Source: Paractinoplanes aksuensis | GTDB taxonomy: Bacteria; Actinomycetota; Actinomycetes; Mycobacteriales; Micromonosporaceae | Assembly: GCF_024137025.1 (NCBI RefSeq) | Contig: NZ_JAMYJR010000033.1 | Coordinates: forward strand, 62,001-126,000 | DNA: 64,000 nucleotides | Direction of reading: 5' to 3' | Shown: piece after piece, positions 20,577 through 24,311 of the stretch | How the letters are laid out: each line of letters opens with the position of its first letter | Position numbering within the stretch: position 1 is the stretch's first letter | Program-made: the position numbers and the translations under genes | Notes under the pieces: generated by a model | Told to the model about the DNA's origin: nothing | Database searches by the model: none | The model's input: the letters and a program-made list of their open reading frames with translations, nothing else

Positions 20577-20669
20577 TCAGCGCAAGTAGGAGGCTCCGTT
20601 CAGGTCGAGGACAGCGCCCGACGACCACAGCGCCTCGGGCGAGCTCAGGTGGACCACGGCCTGTCGGCA
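20577..20669 (-). pseudogene. C-terminal remnant of an SDR-type dehydrogenase
   Basis: About 30 codons ending at TGA 20577-20579 read VVHLSSPEALWSSGAVLD followed by LNGASYLR, the classical C-terminus of FabG-like short-chain dehydrogenases. No Rossmann or Tyr-x-x-x-Lys part is present upstream; instead the sequence becomes unrelated. The fragment is interpreted as the leftover end of a deleted gene, at the left edge of the tRNA array region. Confidence 0.65.
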
Positions 20670-20753
20670 ACACTCATGCGGCAACTCCTTCCGACGCTCC
20701 CGGTGGGACCGGGAGGTGGCTCGACGATAGCTCTTTCCGGCCCCGTCCAAGCG

Positions 20754-20781
20754 TTATCCACAGGTCGCGAAGTTATCCACA
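20754..20781 (+). promoter_or_regulatory. Two consensus DnaA boxes
   Basis: TTATCCACA occurs exactly at 20754-20762 and at 20773-20781, in the same orientation and 19 bp apart, about two helical turns. This is the bacterial DnaA-box consensus and is rare in such GC-rich DNA. It may be a DnaA-binding regulatory or titration site, or a remnant of a replication module. There is no dnaA or dnaN gene nearby. Confidence 0.6.
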
Positions 20782-20859
20782 TTCCGGCGGTCCGGGATTG
20801 CCTCCGGACGGCCTTTTCCAGTACGGGCGCCGACTTCAAGAAAGTGGCAGTAAATAGCG

Positions 20860-20888
20860 TTGCCAACCGGCGGCGGGCGGCCTACCGT
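20860..20888 (+). promoter_or_regulatory. Promoter for the small gene before the tRNA array
   Basis: TTGCCA at 20860-20865 and TACCGT at 20883-20888 are separated by 17 bp, a good fit to a housekeeping sigma factor promoter. Transcription would start near 20895, about 33 bases before the ATG at 20928. The transcript is closed by a terminator at 21064-21099. Confidence 0.55.
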
Positions 20889-20927
20889 AGTCATCACACC
20901 GGGAACGACAGAGACAGGGAGAGACCG

Positions 20928-21041
20928 ATGTCGCGGCACGCCTCGATTACACCGCAGCTGCTCAAGCCGCATGTCGGTGCCGTCCTGACGTGCGGCCTTG
21001 CACCCTACGGCAAGCCCTACCGGGCCCGGTGGCGCAGCTAG
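20928..21041 (+). CDS. 37-residue hypothetical peptide upstream of the tRNA array
   Basis: ATG 20928 is preceded by a purine-rich site (GGGAGAGACCG). The peptide begins MSRHASITPQLLKPHVG, has a single Cys (LTCG) and ends in a basic tail (KPYRARWRS). It is flanked by its own promoter and an intrinsic terminator, forming a complete small transcription unit of about 200 bases. It could be a real small protein or the leader of a small RNA. No family recognised. Confidence 0.5.
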   Translation: MSRHASITPQLLKPHVGAVLTCGLAPYGKPYRARWRS

Positions 21042-21063
21042 CGAACGCTAGCGCAGAAACTCG

Positions 21064-21099
21064 CCGCCGAACCCGACAAGGGGACGGCGGTTTTTCGTT
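21064..21099 (+). terminator. Intrinsic terminator
   Basis: CCGCCG pairs with CGGCGG around an inner CCC/GGG stem with a small AA/GA internal loop. The hairpin (21064-21090) is followed directly by TTTTTCGTTT. A hairpin with a U-tract is unusual in this GC-rich genome and makes a convincing end for the small transcript that starts near 20895. Confidence 0.85.
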
Positions 21100-21215
21100 T
21101 CTCGACCAATTTTACATCGGCACTGTGGGCCATTCCACGCTGCCCTGATAATTGCACCGGCCGCCGCCGGAAGCGATTGCTAATTGACAACTCCACAGCG
21201 GATGGCACAACAAAT

Positions 21216-21287
21216 CCGGAGCGAGGGAGACGGCAACCCGCGCGCCTTGGGAGCGTGAGACACCCCGTTCGACTCGGGGGCTCCGGA
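21216..21287 (+). tRNA. tRNA-Pro (TGG anticodon)
   Basis: Perfect 7-bp acceptor stem CCGGAGC/GCTCCGG, 3-bp D stem GGG/CCC, anticodon stem CGCGC/GCGTG with loop CTTGGGA, T stem CCCCG/CGGGG with loop TTCGACT, discriminator A. No CCA is encoded. Position 8 is G instead of the near-universal U. It is the first member of the array and the only one whose anticodon starts with T. Confidence 0.85.
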
Positions 21288-21339
21288 CGACACATCTTGG
21301 GAAGACACAGCTGCCGACCAGAGATGGACGGCGGCTCAC

Positions 21340-21413
21340 GCGGTTGTAGCTCAGCCAGGCAGAGCGCCACCCCGCCAAGGTGGAGGCCGCCGGTTCGATC
21401 CCGGCCAGCCGCT
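21340..21413 (+). tRNA. tRNA-Gly (GCC anticodon), C33
   Basis: Acceptor GCGGTTG/CAGCCGC with one G-U pair, D stem GCTC/GAGC, anticodon stem CCACC/GGTGG and loop CCGCCAA, T stem GCCGG/CCGGC with loop TTCGATC. Discriminator T, no CCA encoded. The base before the anticodon is C rather than the usual U33; the stem pairing leaves no other register. Confidence 0.85.
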
Positions 21414-21417
21414 TCCC

Positions 21418-21489
21418 GCCCTCGTAGCCCAACGGCAGAGCACGACGTCGAGAACGTCGCCAGTGCGCGTTCAAATCGCGCCGAGGGCA
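21418..21489 (+). tRNA. tRNA with Leu anticodon GAG, short variable loop, C33
   Basis: Perfect acceptor GCCCTCG/CGAGGGC, anticodon stem CGACG/CGTCG with loop TCGAGAA, T stem GCGCG/CGCGC and loop TTCAAAT. The anticodon reads Leu codons, but the variable region is only five bases (CCAGT), whereas bacterial tRNA-Leu has a long variable arm. The D stem is weak and position 33 is C. Charging identity is therefore uncertain. Confidence 0.75.
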
Positions 21490-21504
21490 CGCACCACCGC
21501 CGGT

Positions 21505-21537
21505 CCGGCGCTGCGCGAATCGTCCGCGCAGCGCCGG
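21505..21537. other. 13-bp perfect hairpin between tRNA genes
   Basis: CCGGCGCTGCGCG at 21505-21517 and its exact reverse complement at 21525-21537 flank a 7-base loop AATCGTC. It lies in the 65-bp gap between the GAG and CGT tRNA genes. There is no U-tract. It may be a processing signal, a terminator of the type common in actinobacteria, or a remnant of another element. Confidence 0.8.
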
Positions 21538-21554
21538 GGCGGGCTCAGCACCAG

Positions 21555-21628
21555 GCCGGTGCAGCACGAATGGCTCGTGCAGCCGACTCGTAATCGGCAG
21601 GTTGTGGGTTCGAGTCCCGCCGCCGGCT
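21555..21628 (+). tRNA. tRNA-Thr (CGT anticodon)
   Basis: Acceptor GCCGGTG/CGCCGGC with one G-U pair, D stem GCAC/GTGC, anticodon stem GCCGA/TCGGC and loop CTCGTAA with normal U33, T stem GTGGG/CCCGC and loop TTCGAGT. Discriminator T, no CCA. Position 8 is C instead of U. Confidence 0.85.
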
Positions 21629-21631
21629 CAC

Positions 21632-21704
21632 GCCCGGGTAGCCCAATGGCAGAGGCACGCCGCTCAGGACGGCGCCAGTGCGCGTTCGAATCGCGCTCCG
21701 GGTA
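21632..21704 (+). tRNA. tRNA with Leu anticodon CAG, short variable loop
   Basis: Acceptor GCCCGGG/TCCGGGT with G-U pairs at both ends, 3-bp D stem GCC/GGC, anticodon stem CGCCG/CGGCG and loop CTCAGGA, variable CCAGT, T stem GCGCG/CGCGC with loop TTCGAAT. It shares its T arm and variable loop with the GAG tRNA at 21418, so the two are probably duplicates. It too lacks the long variable arm of a true tRNA-Leu. Confidence 0.75.
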
Positions 21705-21746
21705 CGCATCCGTAGTCATAGATGTCATGAATATCCTGAATGTTTA

Positions 21747-21819
21747 GGGCTCGTAGCTCATCTGGTAGAGCGCCGCTCTCGCACAGCGGAGGTGGCCGGT
21801 TCGACCCCGGCCGGGTCCA
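21747..21819 (+). tRNA. tRNA-Ala (CGC anticodon)
   Basis: Acceptor GGGCTCG/CGGGTCC with two G-U pairs, D stem GCTC/GAGC, anticodon stem CCGCT/AGCGG and loop CTCGCAC, T stem GCCGG/CCGGC with loop TTCGACC, discriminator A. The canonical alanine identity pair G3-U70 is present. It ends three bases before the stop codon of the gene on the opposite strand. Confidence 0.9.
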
Positions 21820-21821
21820 CG

Positions 21822-22700
21822 TCACGGGGTGCCCCGCAGCACGATCACGGCCTGCACGGTGGCGTAACCCCGCCATTCCAGGGCCGCGGCCGGGCTGAAC
21901 GCCGTGAACGTGATGTCCCACCCGCCGTCCGGCTTCTGCTGGCCGGCCAGGCGGGTCAGGTCGGTCTGGACGGCGTCCCGATCGAACATCTGCCTCGAGG
22001 GCGCGTCGGCATGCGGGGTGAAGTCGAGCGGATGAAGCACTTCACCCTCGATGCCGCCGGCCACCGGGGTCGGGCCGTCCGTGCGTACGTGGGAAACGAA
22101 CCCGTCGAGAAGCGAGCGGGCCCGGGCCGAGGTGGGCGCCACCGCGTCCAGGAAGTGCATAGCGAACATGACCTCGTGCGCGGACGGCGTCCCGGTCGTC
22201 TGCTCGATCCGGTCCAGGCAGTAGTCGGTCGACGCCTGCAGCCACGGGTGGTCGGCGACGTCCTCGCGGTGCCGGGCCAGCCGGTGCGCCTGCGCGGCCA
22301 ACTGGGTGGCCATCTGGAGCGACGACGTGTCCACGTCGGCGGTGATCCAGTGCGGCGCGCTGCCGTCGGCGTCCACGAAGGGCAGCGCGAACGGGATGCC
22401 GCCGTCGGGCCGCGAATGCGTGGCCAGCCAGTCGCACAGCTCGATCGACCGGCGGCTGGTGTCACGGACCTCGGCCAGAACTTCGAGGGCGTGCATCGCC
22501 GCCACTGGTTGGCTGGTCACCGAGCGCAGGTCCGGTTCCAGCGCCCACCCGTACCCGCCGTCGGGGTTGCGATGGGCGTCGAGTGCCGGCAGCACCTCGT
22601 CGGCCGAACCCTCCCCCAGCAGGTGGCGCAACCGGCGTCGCTCGAGGACGCGGGCATGGGTCGTCACGAATGAGATCGCCGCATCGAGATCAAGGCTCAT
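21822..22700 (-). CDS. Prenyltransferase/squalene-oxidase-repeat-like protein opposed to the tRNA array
   Basis: 292 residues from ATG 22700. It carries repeats of the alpha/alpha-toroid type found in prenyltransferase and terpene cyclase folds: NPDGGYGWALEPD, RPDGGIPFALPF and KPDGGWDITFTAFSP, each with the DGG(W/Y/I) core. No DxDD or metal-binding cyclase motif is seen, so catalysis is unclear. It lies inside the tRNA array but on the other strand, filling the space between the Ala and Ile tRNA genes with almost no gap. It may have travelled with the array. Confidence 0.75.
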   Translation of the reverse strand: MSLDLDAAISFVTTHARVLERRRLRHLLGEGSADEVLPALDAHRNPDGGYGWALEPDLRSVTSQPVAAMHALEVLAEVRDTSRRSIELCDWLATHSRPDGGIPFALPFVDADGSAPHWITADVDTSSLQMATQLAAQAHRLARHREDVADHPWLQASTDYCLDRIEQTTGTPSAHEVMFAMHFLDAVAPTSARARSLLDGFVSHVRTDGPTPVAGGIEGEVLHPLDFTPHADAPSRQMFDRDAVQTDLTRLAGQQKPDGGWDITFTAFSPAAALEWRGYATVQAVIVLRGTP

Positions 22701-22717
22701 CCGAGCATCCTGGCCCA

Positions 22718-22791
22718 GTCGCCGTAGCTCAGCAGGTCGGAGCGCCGCCCTGATAAGGCGGAGGCCGGTGGTTCGAACCCACCCGGCGACA
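22718..22791 (+). tRNA. tRNA-Ile (GAT anticodon)
   Basis: Perfect acceptor GTCGCCG/CGGCGAC, D stem GCTC/GAGC, anticodon stem CCGCC/GGCGG and loop CTGATAA with U33, T stem GGTGG/CCACC and loop TTCGAAC, discriminator A, no CCA encoded. This is the best preserved tRNA of the array. It begins 18 bases beyond the start codon of the opposed gene. Confidence 0.92.
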
Positions 22792-22809
22792 CGATCCACC
22801 GGAAATCCC

Positions 22810-22896
22810 GGAGACGCCAGCCGATGGGCGCCGGCCGCCGCCTCGAAAGCGGTTGGGGGGTCACACCCCGTGGGCGTTCGACTCGCCCCGTCTCCG
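22810..22896 (+). tRNA. tRNA-Ser (CGA anticodon), long variable arm
   Basis: Perfect acceptor GGAGACG/CGTCTCC, anticodon stem GCCGC/GCGGT and loop CTCGAAA, a long paired variable arm (GGGG...CCCC), T stem GGGCG/CGCCC with loop TTCGACT, discriminator G as in serine tRNAs. Position 8 is C instead of U. Class II structure agrees with the anticodon. Confidence 0.88.
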
Positions 22897-22932
22897 CTTG
22901 TTCCAGCACGTCACGCATTTCCAACACATCAA

Positions 22933-23005
22933 GCGCCGCTAGCTCAACTGGTAGAGCAACGGACTCTTAATCCGTGGGTTCGGGGTTCGATTCCCCGGCG
23001 GCGCA
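22933..23005 (+). tRNA. tRNA-Lys (CTT anticodon)
   Basis: Perfect acceptor GCGCCGC/GCGGCGC, D stem GCTC/GAGC, anticodon stem ACGGA/TCCGT and loop CTCTTAA, T stem CGGGG/CCCCG with loop TTCGATT, discriminator A. All canonical bases (U8, U33, T54, A58) are present. It ends one base before the next tRNA gene. Confidence 0.93.
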
Positions 23006-23006
23006 C

Positions 23007-23082
23007 TGCAGGGTGGAGGAGTTCGGTCGTCCTCGCCGGTCTCATAAGCCGGAAACCGCGGGTTCGAATCCCGCCCCTGCTC
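23007..23082 (+). tRNA. Initiator-like tRNA-Met (CAT anticodon)
   Basis: Laid out as TGCAGGG ... CCCTGCT, the acceptor has a T-T mismatch at position 1-72. The D stem GAGG/CCTC has A11-U24, and the D loop AGTTCGGT matches bacterial initiator tRNA. The 1-72 mismatch and A11-U24 are both initiator features. The anticodon stem CCGGT/GCCGG has two of the three G-C pairs usual for initiators, the third being U-G. Loop CTCATAA. Confidence 0.82.
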
Positions 23083-23084
23083 CC

Positions 23085-23156
23085 GTTCCGGTAGCTCAGC
23101 GGGAGAGCGCCGCCTCGACAAGGCGGAAGTCGCTGGTTCGATCCCAGCCCGGAGCA
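23085..23156 (+). tRNA. tRNA-Val (GAC anticodon), C33
   Basis: Acceptor GTTCCGG/CCGGAGC with one G-U pair, D stem GCTC/GAGC, anticodon stem CCGCC/GGCGG and loop TCGACAA, T stem GCTGG/CCAGC with loop TTCGATC, discriminator A. Position 33 is C. It follows the initiator-like gene by two bases. Confidence 0.88.
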
Positions 23157-23171
23157 CGCAAGGAAAGGCCG

Positions 23172-23243
23172 GTCCGTATGGCTCAGCGGGAGAGCGTCCC
23201 CCTCACACGGGGAAGGTCCCAGGTTCGAATCCTGGTACGGACA
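23172..23243 (+). tRNA. tRNA-Val (CAC anticodon)
   Basis: Perfect acceptor GTCCGTA/TACGGAC, D stem GCTC/GAGC, anticodon stem TCCCC/GGGGA with loop CTCACAC, T stem CCAGG/CCTGG and loop TTCGAAT, discriminator A. Normal U33. Confidence 0.93.
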
Positions 23244-23245
23244 CT

Positions 23246-23317
23246 GTGGCTGTAGCTCAGCGGTAGAGCGCCGGGACGTGGCCCCGGAGGTCGCCGGTTC
23301 GAGACCGGCCAGCCACC
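23246..23317 (+). tRNA. tRNA-His (GTG anticodon), C33, no encoded G-1
   Basis: Perfect acceptor GTGGCTG/CAGCCAC, D stem GCTC/GAGC, anticodon stem CCGGG/CCCGG and loop ACGTGGC, T stem GCCGG/CCGGC with loop TTCGAGA. Discriminator is C73, as needed for histidine. The preceding base is T, so the extra G-1 normally encoded in bacterial tRNA-His is absent. Position 33 is C. Confidence 0.82.
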
Positions 23318-23322
23318 CCAGT

Positions 23323-23407
23323 GCGCGTCGTGGACGGCGGCACGTCCAGCGGTCCGTAAAACCGTCGCCTTGTGGCAGACCTGGGTCGGCACCAGGGACG
23401 CGCACCA
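23323..23407 (+). tRNA. tRNA-Tyr-like gene (GTA anticodon) with degenerate T loop and encoded CCA
   Basis: All stems pair: acceptor GCGCGTC/GACGCGC, D stem GGAC/GTCC, anticodon stem GCGGT/ACCGT with loop CCGTAAA, a 14-base variable arm with GCC/GGC, T stem CCTGG/CCAGG. Discriminator A is followed by an encoded CCA, the only one in the array. The T loop is GTCGGCA, lacking T54 and A58, position 8 is G, and position 33 is C. Standard search programs may miss it. It is either an unusual tRNA-Tyr or a decaying copy. Confidence 0.6.
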
Positions 23408-23408
23408 C

Positions 23409-23479
23409 AGTCGCATGCCCGAGTGGTCAGGGGCCCGCCTGCAAAGCGGTCTACGCCGGTTCGAATCCGGCTGCGGCTT
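23409..23479 (+). tRNA. tRNA-Cys (GCA anticodon)
   Basis: Acceptor AGTCGCA/TGCGGCT with one T-G pair, 3-bp D stem CCC/GGG typical of bacterial tRNA-Cys, anticodon stem CCGC/GCGG (outermost pair unmatched) with loop CTGCAAA, T stem GCCGG/CCGGC and loop TTCGAAT, discriminator T (U73 is the main cysteine identity base). Last member of the array. Confidence 0.88.
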
Positions 23480-23490
23480 CGATTGCCATC

Positions 23491-23532
23491 CGCTGTGGGG
23501 TCATAGAGAAGCGCTGTGGAGTCATAGAGAGA
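23491..23532. repeat. Imperfect 21-bp tandem duplication after the array
   Basis: Two adjacent 21-bp copies, each beginning CGCTGTGG and containing GTCATAGAGA, at 23491-23511 and 23512-23532, differing at about two positions. They sit directly downstream of the last tRNA. A short motif CCCCAGTGCGCGTCG also occurs both here (from 23545) and just before the Tyr-like gene (from 23316), suggesting duplications within the array. Confidence 0.75.
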
Positions 23533-23588
23533 GCTTGGCCGACGCCCCAGTGCGCGTCGGCTGCTGTTGAGGGCTGGACGTCGTGCGC

Positions 23589-23629
23589 GGCCGTGGTGTT
23601 CCGGTGCATTGCGGTGGAACACCACGGCC
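23589..23629. terminator. Hairpin terminator between the tRNA array and the convergent membrane-protein gene
   Basis: GGCCGTGGTGTTCC at 23589-23602 is matched by its exact reverse complement at 23616-23629 around a 13-base loop. It has no U-tract, as is common for actinobacterial terminators, and by symmetry can act on both converging transcripts. Confidence 0.7.
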
Positions 23630-23633
23630 ACGA

Positions 23634-24311
23634 TCAGTGGGCGTTGGCCAGGGTGGGCTCGGCGGCGGTCACGTCGGCCGCCGTTCGGCGCAGCAGGCGC
23701 AGGCCGATCAGGAACAGCGGGGCGCAGCAGAGGGCGCCGGCCACGCTTCCGGCCAGTGGGGAGACCATGCCGCCGATCATCGGGCCGCCGATCATCGGGA
23801 GGAGCGCGACGGGGGTGGCCCACCAGCCGATGATGCCGTTGCGGGCCAGACCGGCCATGAGCACGGCCGGCATGAGCAGGCCCAGGACAACACCGGAGCG
23901 CAGCCAGACGACCATCGAGGGGTCGCCGTTGACCTTGTCGAAGATGGTCACGGCCTGGTCCATGGTGACGACGGTGGGCAGGGCGGCGTTCATCCAGTCG
24001 GCGAAGAGGACGCCGGACATCTGGATCGCTCCGATGACCGTCGCCACCGCGCCGATGGTGGCCAGGACCTGACCGCGGGGGCCGCGGAGCAGGGTCAGGG
24101 CGGCCGGGATGCCCAGCGCGATCGCCAACCAGTAGTAGTGGAAGAGGTTGGCCGACAGGATCGACAGGTCCCAGTCCCGGGCCAGCGAGTCGATGTAGGC
24201 CCGGGGTGAGTCGTCGTCCTGCGGCGGGGAGGTCACCATCGCGCCGAGCAGCAGGGCGGGGGTGGTCACGAGGGCGGCGCCGGCCAGGCGGCGGAAGAGG
24301 TTGTTCGTCAT
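23634..24311 (-). CDS. Integral membrane protein
   Basis: 225 residues with about six predicted membrane spans (near residues 8-26, 55-75, 85-108, 138-160, 165-185 and 188-208) and a short extracellular loop after the first helix (SPPQDDDSPRAYIDSLARDWD). No family motif recognised. It is transcribed away from the neighbouring histidine kinase operon, which may control it; kinases of this type are often next to the membrane protein they regulate. Confidence 0.75.
   Translation of the reverse strand: MTNNLFRRLAGAALVTTPALLLGAMVTSPPQDDDSPRAYIDSLARDWDLSILSANLFHYYWLAIALGIPAALTLLRGPRGQVLATIGAVATVIGAIQMSGVLFADWMNAALPTVVTMDQAVTIFDKVNGDPSMVVWLRSGVVLGLLMPAVLMAGLARNGIIGWWATPVALLPMIGGPMIGGMVSPLAGSVAGALCCAPLFLIGLRLLRRTAADVTAAEPTLANAH

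Follow-up and report, generated by a model that had tools for sequence, protein, structure and literature searches.

Introduction

Dense arrays of tRNA genes that are redundant with the core set are already known (PMC5966550; PMC12803027). A published definition of the tRNA array unit asks for at least 20 tRNA genes at a density of at least two per kb (quoted in PMC5966550). In Mycobacterium avium, no array tRNA has the same sequence as the core tRNA to which it corresponds, and an HNH gene is embedded in the arrays (PMC12803027). The role of such redundant arrays is an open question and is called unknown in the M. avium paper (PMC12803027). Here, we describe an array of 15 tRNA genes in Paractinoplanes aksuensis (NCBI RefSeq assembly GCF_024137025.1), which lies within a 64,000-nucleotide stretch of contig NZ_JAMYJR010000033.1 (positions 62,001 to 126,000; hereafter, the window). 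Its control architecture, read from the sequence, and its redundancy suggest that the block probably serves the translation-stress response as an operon of back-up tRNAs, with induction inferred.

Two other systems provide the background for this reading. In Mycobacterium abscessus, an AT-rich tract lies 3 bp before the -35 element in all 56 WhiB7 ChIP regions (PMC10727445), and in Streptomyces coelicolor, where the AT-rich motif is placed likewise, six tRNA genes are directly controlled by WblC (PMC7157823). In Anabaena, a 26-tRNA operon is silent and is induced by translation-blocking antibiotics (PMC10272220).

Control region preceding the tRNA array

The region at 20851-21207 contains, in this order, a promoter, a leader open reading frame (uORF), a GCTAGC hairpin, a terminator, and a boxA-like site, followed by tRNA-Pro at 21216. 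The promoter (TAAATA-GCG-TTGCCA-N17-TACCGT; 20851-20888, + strand) is of the WhiB7/WblC type, with 3 bp separating an AT-rich tract from the -35 element, a spacer within the range of 16-19 bp, and a TANNNT -10 element, and shares its architecture with the promoter of the genome's own whiB7. The latter gene was recognized by an AT-hook RGRP and by EPW before GVWGG, marks of WhiB7 given in PMC10727445, and its promoter reads TTAATT-CGT-TTGCCT-N18-TAGCCT; its upstream region also has a long uORF and a hairpin that resembles a terminator and carries a T run. The AT-rich motifs of the array (TAAATA) and of whiB7 (TTAATT) both depart from the GAAAWY of S. coelicolor.

To place this leader in context, we compared 55 distinct arrays from 67 loci, which had been chosen by array similarity or by a tRNA-Leu pattern (described below) and not by their leaders. 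Twelve loci were dropped before counting, comprising seven duplicates (L109, L113, L123, L128, L130, L136, and L138) and five with less than 400 nt upstream (L118, L120, L121, L126, and L129). As the control set, we took 40 stretches that precede other tRNA genes in the P. aksuensis genome, one of 132 nt and one of 584 nt; genes closely behind another tRNA were given no stretch of their own, and two stretches (L163 and L175) came from a remnant second array, which made the control harsher. We regard this set as the fairer control for the promoter because the background DNA is mostly coding. A strict form of the promoter was found within 700 nt before 31 of the 55 arrays and once in the 1,646,236 nt of remaining locus DNA (both strands), and a relaxed form preceded 45 arrays. 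Neither form was found in the 40 control stretches. A genome-wide pattern covering the array and whiB7 promoters returned five sites in 10 Mb (one with the reversed control), namely whiB7, the window array, and three others that were placed by eye before a gene for an HNH nuclease, with an ORF of 20 aa, before a MarR-MFS pair, and at a position without an assignable neighbour. At locus L192 (G000:C24:151453), an array-type promoter with the start region TACCGTAGAGATCACC and a 20-aa uORF that includes GGTGGCG stands before a gene that by eye resembles one for an HNH endonuclease.

The window uORF (20928-21041, + strand) encodes 37 aa ending in RARWRS and carries the Shine-Dalgarno-like sequence AGGGAGAG. 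The GCTAGC hairpin (21037-21052, + strand) lies at its stop codon, and an intrinsic terminator, or attenuator, follows at 21062-21095 (+ strand; CGCCGCC...CGGCGG-TTTTT; about -21 kcal/mol alone). A uORF with a Shine-Dalgarno-like sequence and a terminator 3' arm 15-60 nt further on was present in 52 of the 55 arrays, as compared with none of the 40 other tRNA upstreams and 5 of 1,686 background segments of 700 nt; the relaxed promoter, uORF, and terminator occurred together in 43 arrays. The uORFs ranged from 10 to 58 aa, with a median of 42.5 nt between the stop codon and the terminator 3' arm, and 41 of the 52 contained Trp among their last six residues, many as RWR.

The GGTGGCG sequence under the uORF end is able to pair with the CGCCGCC of the terminator. 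In the window, the antiterminator arm CGGTGGCG within the uORF end (21027-21034, + strand) pairs with 21062-21069, enclosing the GCTAGC hairpin, and this pairing is the minimum-energy fold until the terminator 3' arm is made, whereupon the terminator is favoured. Among the 48 arrays covered by the antiterminator test, the duplex between uORF end and terminator arm was better than the dinucleotide-shuffle mean in 43 (mean z -1.33) and gave p ≤ 0.05 in 15. The predicted fold thus contains a mutually exclusive antiterminator that uses the uORF.

The attenuator might sense a particular tRNA rather than general ribosome stress, with tRNA-Trp as the candidate in arrays that begin with tRNA-Trp (Trp-first arrays). 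An early Trp codon (codons 2-5) was indeed found in 12 of the 14 Trp-first arrays with a uORF versus 6 of the 38 others, but the associated p value of 6e-6 is overstated, as the pattern was noticed post hoc and the leaders are related; moreover, tRNA-Trp is absent from the window array, whose uORF contains Trp only near the end. We therefore consider such tRNA-specific sensing unlikely.

The boxA-like site TTGACAACTCCACAGCGGATGGCA (21184-21207, + strand) resembles TTCTTTGAGAACTCAACAGGGTGC, which stands before 16S rRNA in the complete genomes of two relatives (G017 and G023) and contains the part of the rRNA-operon leader that we take to be boxA. These relatives served as the reference because no 16S match was obtained in the assembly from which the window comes. 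With up to three mismatches allowed, a boxA-like site was located before the tRNAs, or after the leading tRNA-Trp, in 34 of the 55 arrays, as compared with two sites across the 731,727 nt searched as background and none in the 40 other tRNA upstreams. Its presence went with array size, with 27 of 28 arrays of at least seven tRNAs carrying one versus 7 of 27 shorter arrays. This distribution is as expected if long untranslated transcripts require antitermination.

The sequence around this site also bears on a further explanation, according to which the leader is an independent unit, such as a small RNA or a peptide gene, that ends at the terminator, while the array is transcribed from a constitutive promoter of its own with TTGACA near 21184. 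This TTGACA is present, and the terminator is strong, as its folding energy indicates. However, no TANNNT was seen by eye at 16-19 nt from TTGACA, the site resembles the boxA region of the relatives' rRNA leaders, and in Trp-first arrays it follows the first tRNA, rendering a separate promoter there improbable. The anatomy of the leader and its conservation across the arrays are direct observations.

tRNA genes of the array

ARAGORN called 14 tRNA genes at 21216-23480, all on the + strand, of which 12 were above the Rfam gathering score. A fifteenth gene, a degenerate tRNA-Tyr(GTA), was missed by ARAGORN in the window; its homologue in a relative (L081) was called, and the two are identical at 79 of 85 positions. 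An earlier reading made from the sequence alone (the sequence-only reading) had described a dense one-strand array of 15 genes with anticodons nearly all starting with G or C, which agrees with the 15 genes found here in 2.27 kb and with the 14 of 15 anticodons that start with G or C (Pro TGG excepted). Its counts of twelve amino acids and of a single CCA-encoding gene need correction to 13 amino acids, with Tyr included, and to two such genes, His and Tyr.

In order along the + strand, the array comprises tRNA-Pro(TGG) (21216-21288), tRNA-Gly(GCC) (21340-21413), tRNA-Leu(GAG) (21418-21490), tRNA-Thr(CGT) (21555-21629), tRNA-Leu(CAG) (21632-21705), and tRNA-Ala(CGC) (21747-21820), and, beyond an embedded protein gene, tRNA-Ile(GAT) (22718-22792), tRNA-Ser(CGA) (22810-22897), tRNA-Lys(CTT) (22933-23006), tRNA-Met(CAT) (23007-23084), tRNA-Val(GAC) (23085-23157), tRNA-Val(CAC) (23172-23244), tRNA-His(GTG) (23246-23320), tRNA-Tyr(GTA) (23323-23407), and tRNA-Cys(GCA) (23409-23480). 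The tRNA-Met is initiator-like, with a U1:U72 mismatch and, by eye, A11:U24, and the tRNA-Tyr has an unusual T loop (GTCGGCA).

All 15 anticodons occurred again among the 49 tRNAs that ARAGORN found in fetched genome stretches outside the array. The array is therefore redundant with a complete core set, which it supplements as the sequence-only reading had supposed, and the possibility that it holds the sole copies of essential tRNAs, which that reading had named as a sign of core status, was ruled out. The whole 10.0-Mb genome contains 63 Rfam tRNA matches, including the 12 of the array. An additional 127-nt Rfam tRNA match that was not called by ARAGORN (L040; G000:C6:189573-189699) appeared by eye to be a tRNA with an insert near the anticodon arm.

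Several members deviate from the usual tRNA form, as the sequence-only reading had noted, and most of the remaining ones look canonical. Both array tRNA-Leu have a variable loop of 5 nt, as compared with 15-17 nt in five core tRNA-Leu. This short-arm form was found in all 20 tRNA-Leu(CAG) and all 18 tRNA-Leu(GAG) of the relatives' arrays (window included), with A73 in 38 of 38, and because it is universal there and always accompanied by A73, it does not represent decay. We also considered a change of identity, as the bodies of these tRNAs resemble tRNA-Gly by eye; with A73 kept in every case, misacylation is not claimed. An exact pattern for the short-arm tRNA-Leu matched 31 stretches in the genome collection, one from an Actinomycetes metagenome bin and 30 with genus titles (Actinoplanes, Paractinoplanes, Winogradskya, Amorphoplanes, Symbioplanes, Dactylosporangium, Virgisporangium, Phytohabitans, Couchioplanes, Pseudosporangium, Micromonospora, or Actinocatenispora). 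Eleven of these 12 names belong to Micromonosporaceae in the NCBI list, from which Amorphoplanes is absent. In the phage and plasmid collections, tRNA-Leu(CAG) matched two phages (Phabba and GodonK) and one Nonomuraea plasmid.

A second deviation concerns the anticodon loop. C33 was found in the tRNA-Gly, tRNA-Leu(GAG), tRNA-Val(GAC), and tRNA-His of the window and, by eye, in its tRNA-Tyr. Among 331 array tRNAs (321 distinct, 36 loci, 24 genomes), C33 was concentrated in those with G34 (46/135), with lower counts for C34 (5/146), U34 (4/39), and A34 (0/11). All 49 tRNAs outside the array in the P. aksuensis genome, the only genome used for the core comparison, carried U33 (C33, 0/49). Additionally, G-1 was missing in 7 of 10 array tRNA-His, including that of the window, and present in the core tRNA-His. 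G3:U70 was kept in all 30 array tRNA-Ala, that of the window among them.

These loop changes raise the possibility that the array counters tRNA-cutting enzymes, such as VapC-type toxins, anticodon nucleases of phage defence, or bacteriocins, its altered tRNAs standing in for those cleaved. By analogy with phage tRNAs, whose anticodon loops are changed where nucleases cut and for which such an escape has been proposed (PMC10264068), altered loops would suit tRNAs that evade anticodon nucleases. In M. abscessus, cleavage of tRNA-Ser(CGA) by VapC5 made whiB7 the most induced transcript (PMC10287673), and arrays have been termed a putative antidefence system (PMC12803027). On the other hand, several array loops (Lys, Ile, Cys, Ser(CGA), Thr(CGT), and Met) are identical to those of the core, and no nuclease family was found among the nine neighbouring proteins scanned, three of which had no match at all. 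We regard this explanation as possible but tentative; since it concerns the purpose of the array, it may hold together with the proposed control.

The stems of the array tRNAs have stayed paired while their sequences diverged. In 280 sequences from 24 isoacceptor groups, pairing was kept in 98.4% of stem cells, and double changes were found at 220 of 408 stem positions versus at most 111 in 300 shuffles, both figures being inflated by the fact that ARAGORN reports foldable tRNAs only.

Arrays in related genomes

We performed blastn of the array against 40 genomes (its own, 23 of the same genus, and 16 of the same order) and then fetched 40 stretches. Clusters of at least four tRNAs were present in 22 of the 23 same-genus genomes sampled; in the remaining one (G008), no array was seen and three blastn matches to the array were obtained. 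A cluster was also found in one genome of another family (G035), which was one of two fetched from the 16 same-order genomes, the other (G038) having been fetched for the embedded gene.

The relatives' arrays reach 31 (G023), 23 (G016), and 20 (G010) tRNAs. Gene order relative to the 31-tRNA array was mostly kept: of 47 loci sharing at least four tRNA types, 36 reached a Kendall tau of 0.9 or more (lowest tau, 0), as did 30 of 41 after removal of six duplicates. The window array is shorter than those of the relatives and has the same gene order as G023. Flanking genes divided 36 array loci into 18 context groups, a number that depends on simple gene calling and contig ends and may reflect over-splitting. 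The group of the window also holds G002, G003, and G011, two of which share 10 and 6 protein genes with it, whereas the third has the same left neighbour. The array is thus old in the clade and has since been moved or rearranged, and the window copy is a shortened version.

The sequence-only reading had instead favoured an acquired or decaying array that supplements the core set; as a rival explanation, this would mean an enlarged tRNA pool free of special control. The redundancy of the array with the core, the smaller number of tRNAs than in relatives, the degenerate tRNA-Tyr, the protein gene that interrupts the array, and the many contexts in relatives are in line with that view. However, it is difficult to reconcile with arrays in nearly all same-genus genomes sampled, largely preserved gene order, a site common to three relatives, compensatory stem changes, and a conserved leader; we thus retain the shortening and consider decay or acquisition without special control very unlikely. 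That reading had also held that the array would be core if it occupied the same place in all relatives, and the site is in fact shared with three of them, whereas the 18 context groups speak against a single common place.

Recent acquisition from a phage or plasmid was considered separately and rejected. Among the 20 matches listed each for phages (336 records) and plasmids (100), one to three tRNA-sized pieces of the array matched, too thin a basis for claiming an origin. One of the matches listed, in Nonomuraea gerenzanensis, was to the embedded protein gene.

Two further loci were noted. The P. aksuensis genome contains a remnant second array (C89:73647-74453, within G000:C89:73647-75254; L014, L026, L163, and L175) with tRNA-Trp, a fragment, and a tRNA-Met(CAT) whose body is Ile-like; by eye, its leader appears to hold a promoter in degenerate form and a uORF akin to those of L076, L077, and L093. 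A linear plasmid of Nonomuraea sp. NBC_00507 (L144) carries, by eye, a uORF and terminator before tRNA-Trp, after which come a boxA-like site and an array of 35 tRNAs. This array belongs to a different actinobacterial order and has the same arrangement, with a gene order that agrees in part only (tau 0.49).

Embedded gene and flanking elements

The protein gene that interrupts the array between 21820 and 22718 was absent from the description in the sequence-only reading. It occupies 21822-22700 on the - strand and encodes approximately 292 aa from a likely ATG placed by eye. No Pfam match was obtained, and a resemblance to squalene cyclases was insignificant. The gene is also located within the arrays of G011 and G002, and its homologues occur without tRNAs elsewhere in relatives (five fetched loci: L094-L097 and L100).

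A perfect hairpin, GGCGCTGCGCG/CGCGCAGCGCC, is located at 21500-21545 between tRNA-Leu(GAG) and tRNA-Thr. On the 3' side of the last tRNA, a strong inverted repeat (GGCCGTGGTGTTCC...GGAACACCACGGCC; 23582-23636), which has no T run, possibly marks the end of the array. To the left of the array, where DnaA boxes had been reported from the sequence alone, we confirmed two perfect copies of TTATCCACA at 20754 and 20773, 19 nt apart (20754-20781, + strand; 0.03 expected in the window), approximately 70 nt upstream of the promoter. Among nine array loci, including the window, five had a pair of DnaA boxes, three had a single box (-400 to -439 from the first tRNA), and one had none.

Discussion

In the array leader, a promoter of the WhiB7 type is combined with an attenuator that would sense ribosomes and with an antitermination signal of the rRNA kind, and this shared control region points to induction when translation stalls. 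Because the promoter, uORF, attenuator, and boxA precede redundant tRNAs, we infer both this induction and a back-up tRNA supply; WhiB7 activation, stalling-dependent readthrough, boxA-dependent completion, and use of the tRNAs in translation are likewise deduced from sequence. In unstressed cells, WhiB7 would be low, and ribosomes finishing the leader ORF would cover its GGTGGCG end, so that the terminator would form and the tRNAs would remain silent. When ribosomes stall owing to an antibiotic, tRNA cleavage, or a shortage of amino acids or tRNA, WhiB7 would rise and activate the promoter, while the uncovered GGTGGCG would pair with the 5' arm of the terminator and allow RNA polymerase to read through. 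The boxA site could then recruit rRNA antitermination factors, by which the long untranslated transcript would be completed, and the extra tRNAs, some with altered anticodon loops, might keep translation going. If this proves true, a tRNA operon would join the intrinsic antibiotic-response regulon of actinobacteria, with a link to tRNA cleavage.

Several observations weigh against such an operon. The published S. coelicolor motif is GAAAWY, as compared with TAAATA at the array; 10 of the 55 arrays have no promoter even under the relaxed rule, and three have no uORF-terminator. The arrays are mutually related, and the counts over 55 are consequently not independent. A generic scan of 20600-23800 found no sigma-70 promoter and no terminator, which we ascribe to the weak -10 element and to the internal loop of the terminator. 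Only 15 of the 48 antiterminator duplexes were individually significant, and five were no better than the mean of their shuffles. Close relatives differ by too few uORF substitutions for translation to be proved, and boxA is mostly missing from short arrays. The stem-pairing figures carry the inflation mentioned above. Finally, the array tRNA-His has no G-1, and charging and use of the altered tRNAs are presumed. Taking these points into account, we still consider a stress-induced back-up operon the probable function of the block.

A broader proposal is that the Micromonosporaceae arrays form an inducible tRNA-replacement system, in which the leader ORF would sense the state of tRNAs and ribosomes (in Trp-first arrays, tRNA-Trp itself) and, together with WhiB7, induce diverged spare tRNAs (C33 before G34, short-arm tRNA-Leu, and tRNA-His without G-1) that might be spared by tRNA-cutting toxins or drugs. 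In this full form, the proposal is speculative, and we would not expect all of its parts to hold.

Our literature search, which left most subscription journals outside its reach, returned, among the papers listed, no account of attenuated, WhiB7-type, boxA-bearing control of tRNA arrays, and none was found on tRNA arrays in Actinoplanes or on WhiB7 together with tRNA arrays.

Among described systems, the locus is similar to the Mycobacterium tRNA array units of chromosomes, plasmids, and phages in being a dense cluster redundant with the core (PMC5966550; PMC12803027). Its density exceeds the published two tRNA genes per kb (15 in 2.27 kb), whereas its size (14 ARAGORN genes and tRNA-Tyr) is below the minimum of 20, which relatives pass. 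The accessible parts of the Mycobacterium literature (PMC5966550; PMC12803027) make no mention of a WhiB7 promoter or leader. Gene order also differs from five plasmid arrays (Mycolicibacterium, Tsukamurella, Arthrobacter, M. intracellulare, and Pseudarthrobacter; tau -0.1 to 0.35), of which three carry a boxA-like site with up to three mismatches (L145, L148, and L149, in the last of which it lies 640 nt into the array) and two, L146 and L147, have none. With the actinobacterial WhiB7/WblC regulon and the whiB7 attenuator (PMC7157823; PMC10727445; PMC11550727), the locus shares the layout of its promoter, a uORF, an intrinsic terminator, and a predicted antiterminator as the alternative fold; unlike the whiB7 attenuator, the one described here precedes a tRNA operon and is followed by boxA, and its uORF differs in sequence from that of whiB7. 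The boxA-like site is close to the boxA region of the relatives' rRNA leaders, as in rRNA operon antitermination, but precedes tRNA genes only and is located after an attenuator. The experiments that come closest are those in which VapC5 cleaved tRNA and whiB7 was induced (PMC10287673) and those on the antibiotic-induced tRNA operon of Anabaena (PMC10272220). The Anabaena operon, trn under TrcR, is likewise large and redundant but differs in its control by an RHH repressor, its location on a megaplasmid, and its cyanobacterial host, and the accessible parts of that report describe no attenuator (PMC10272220).

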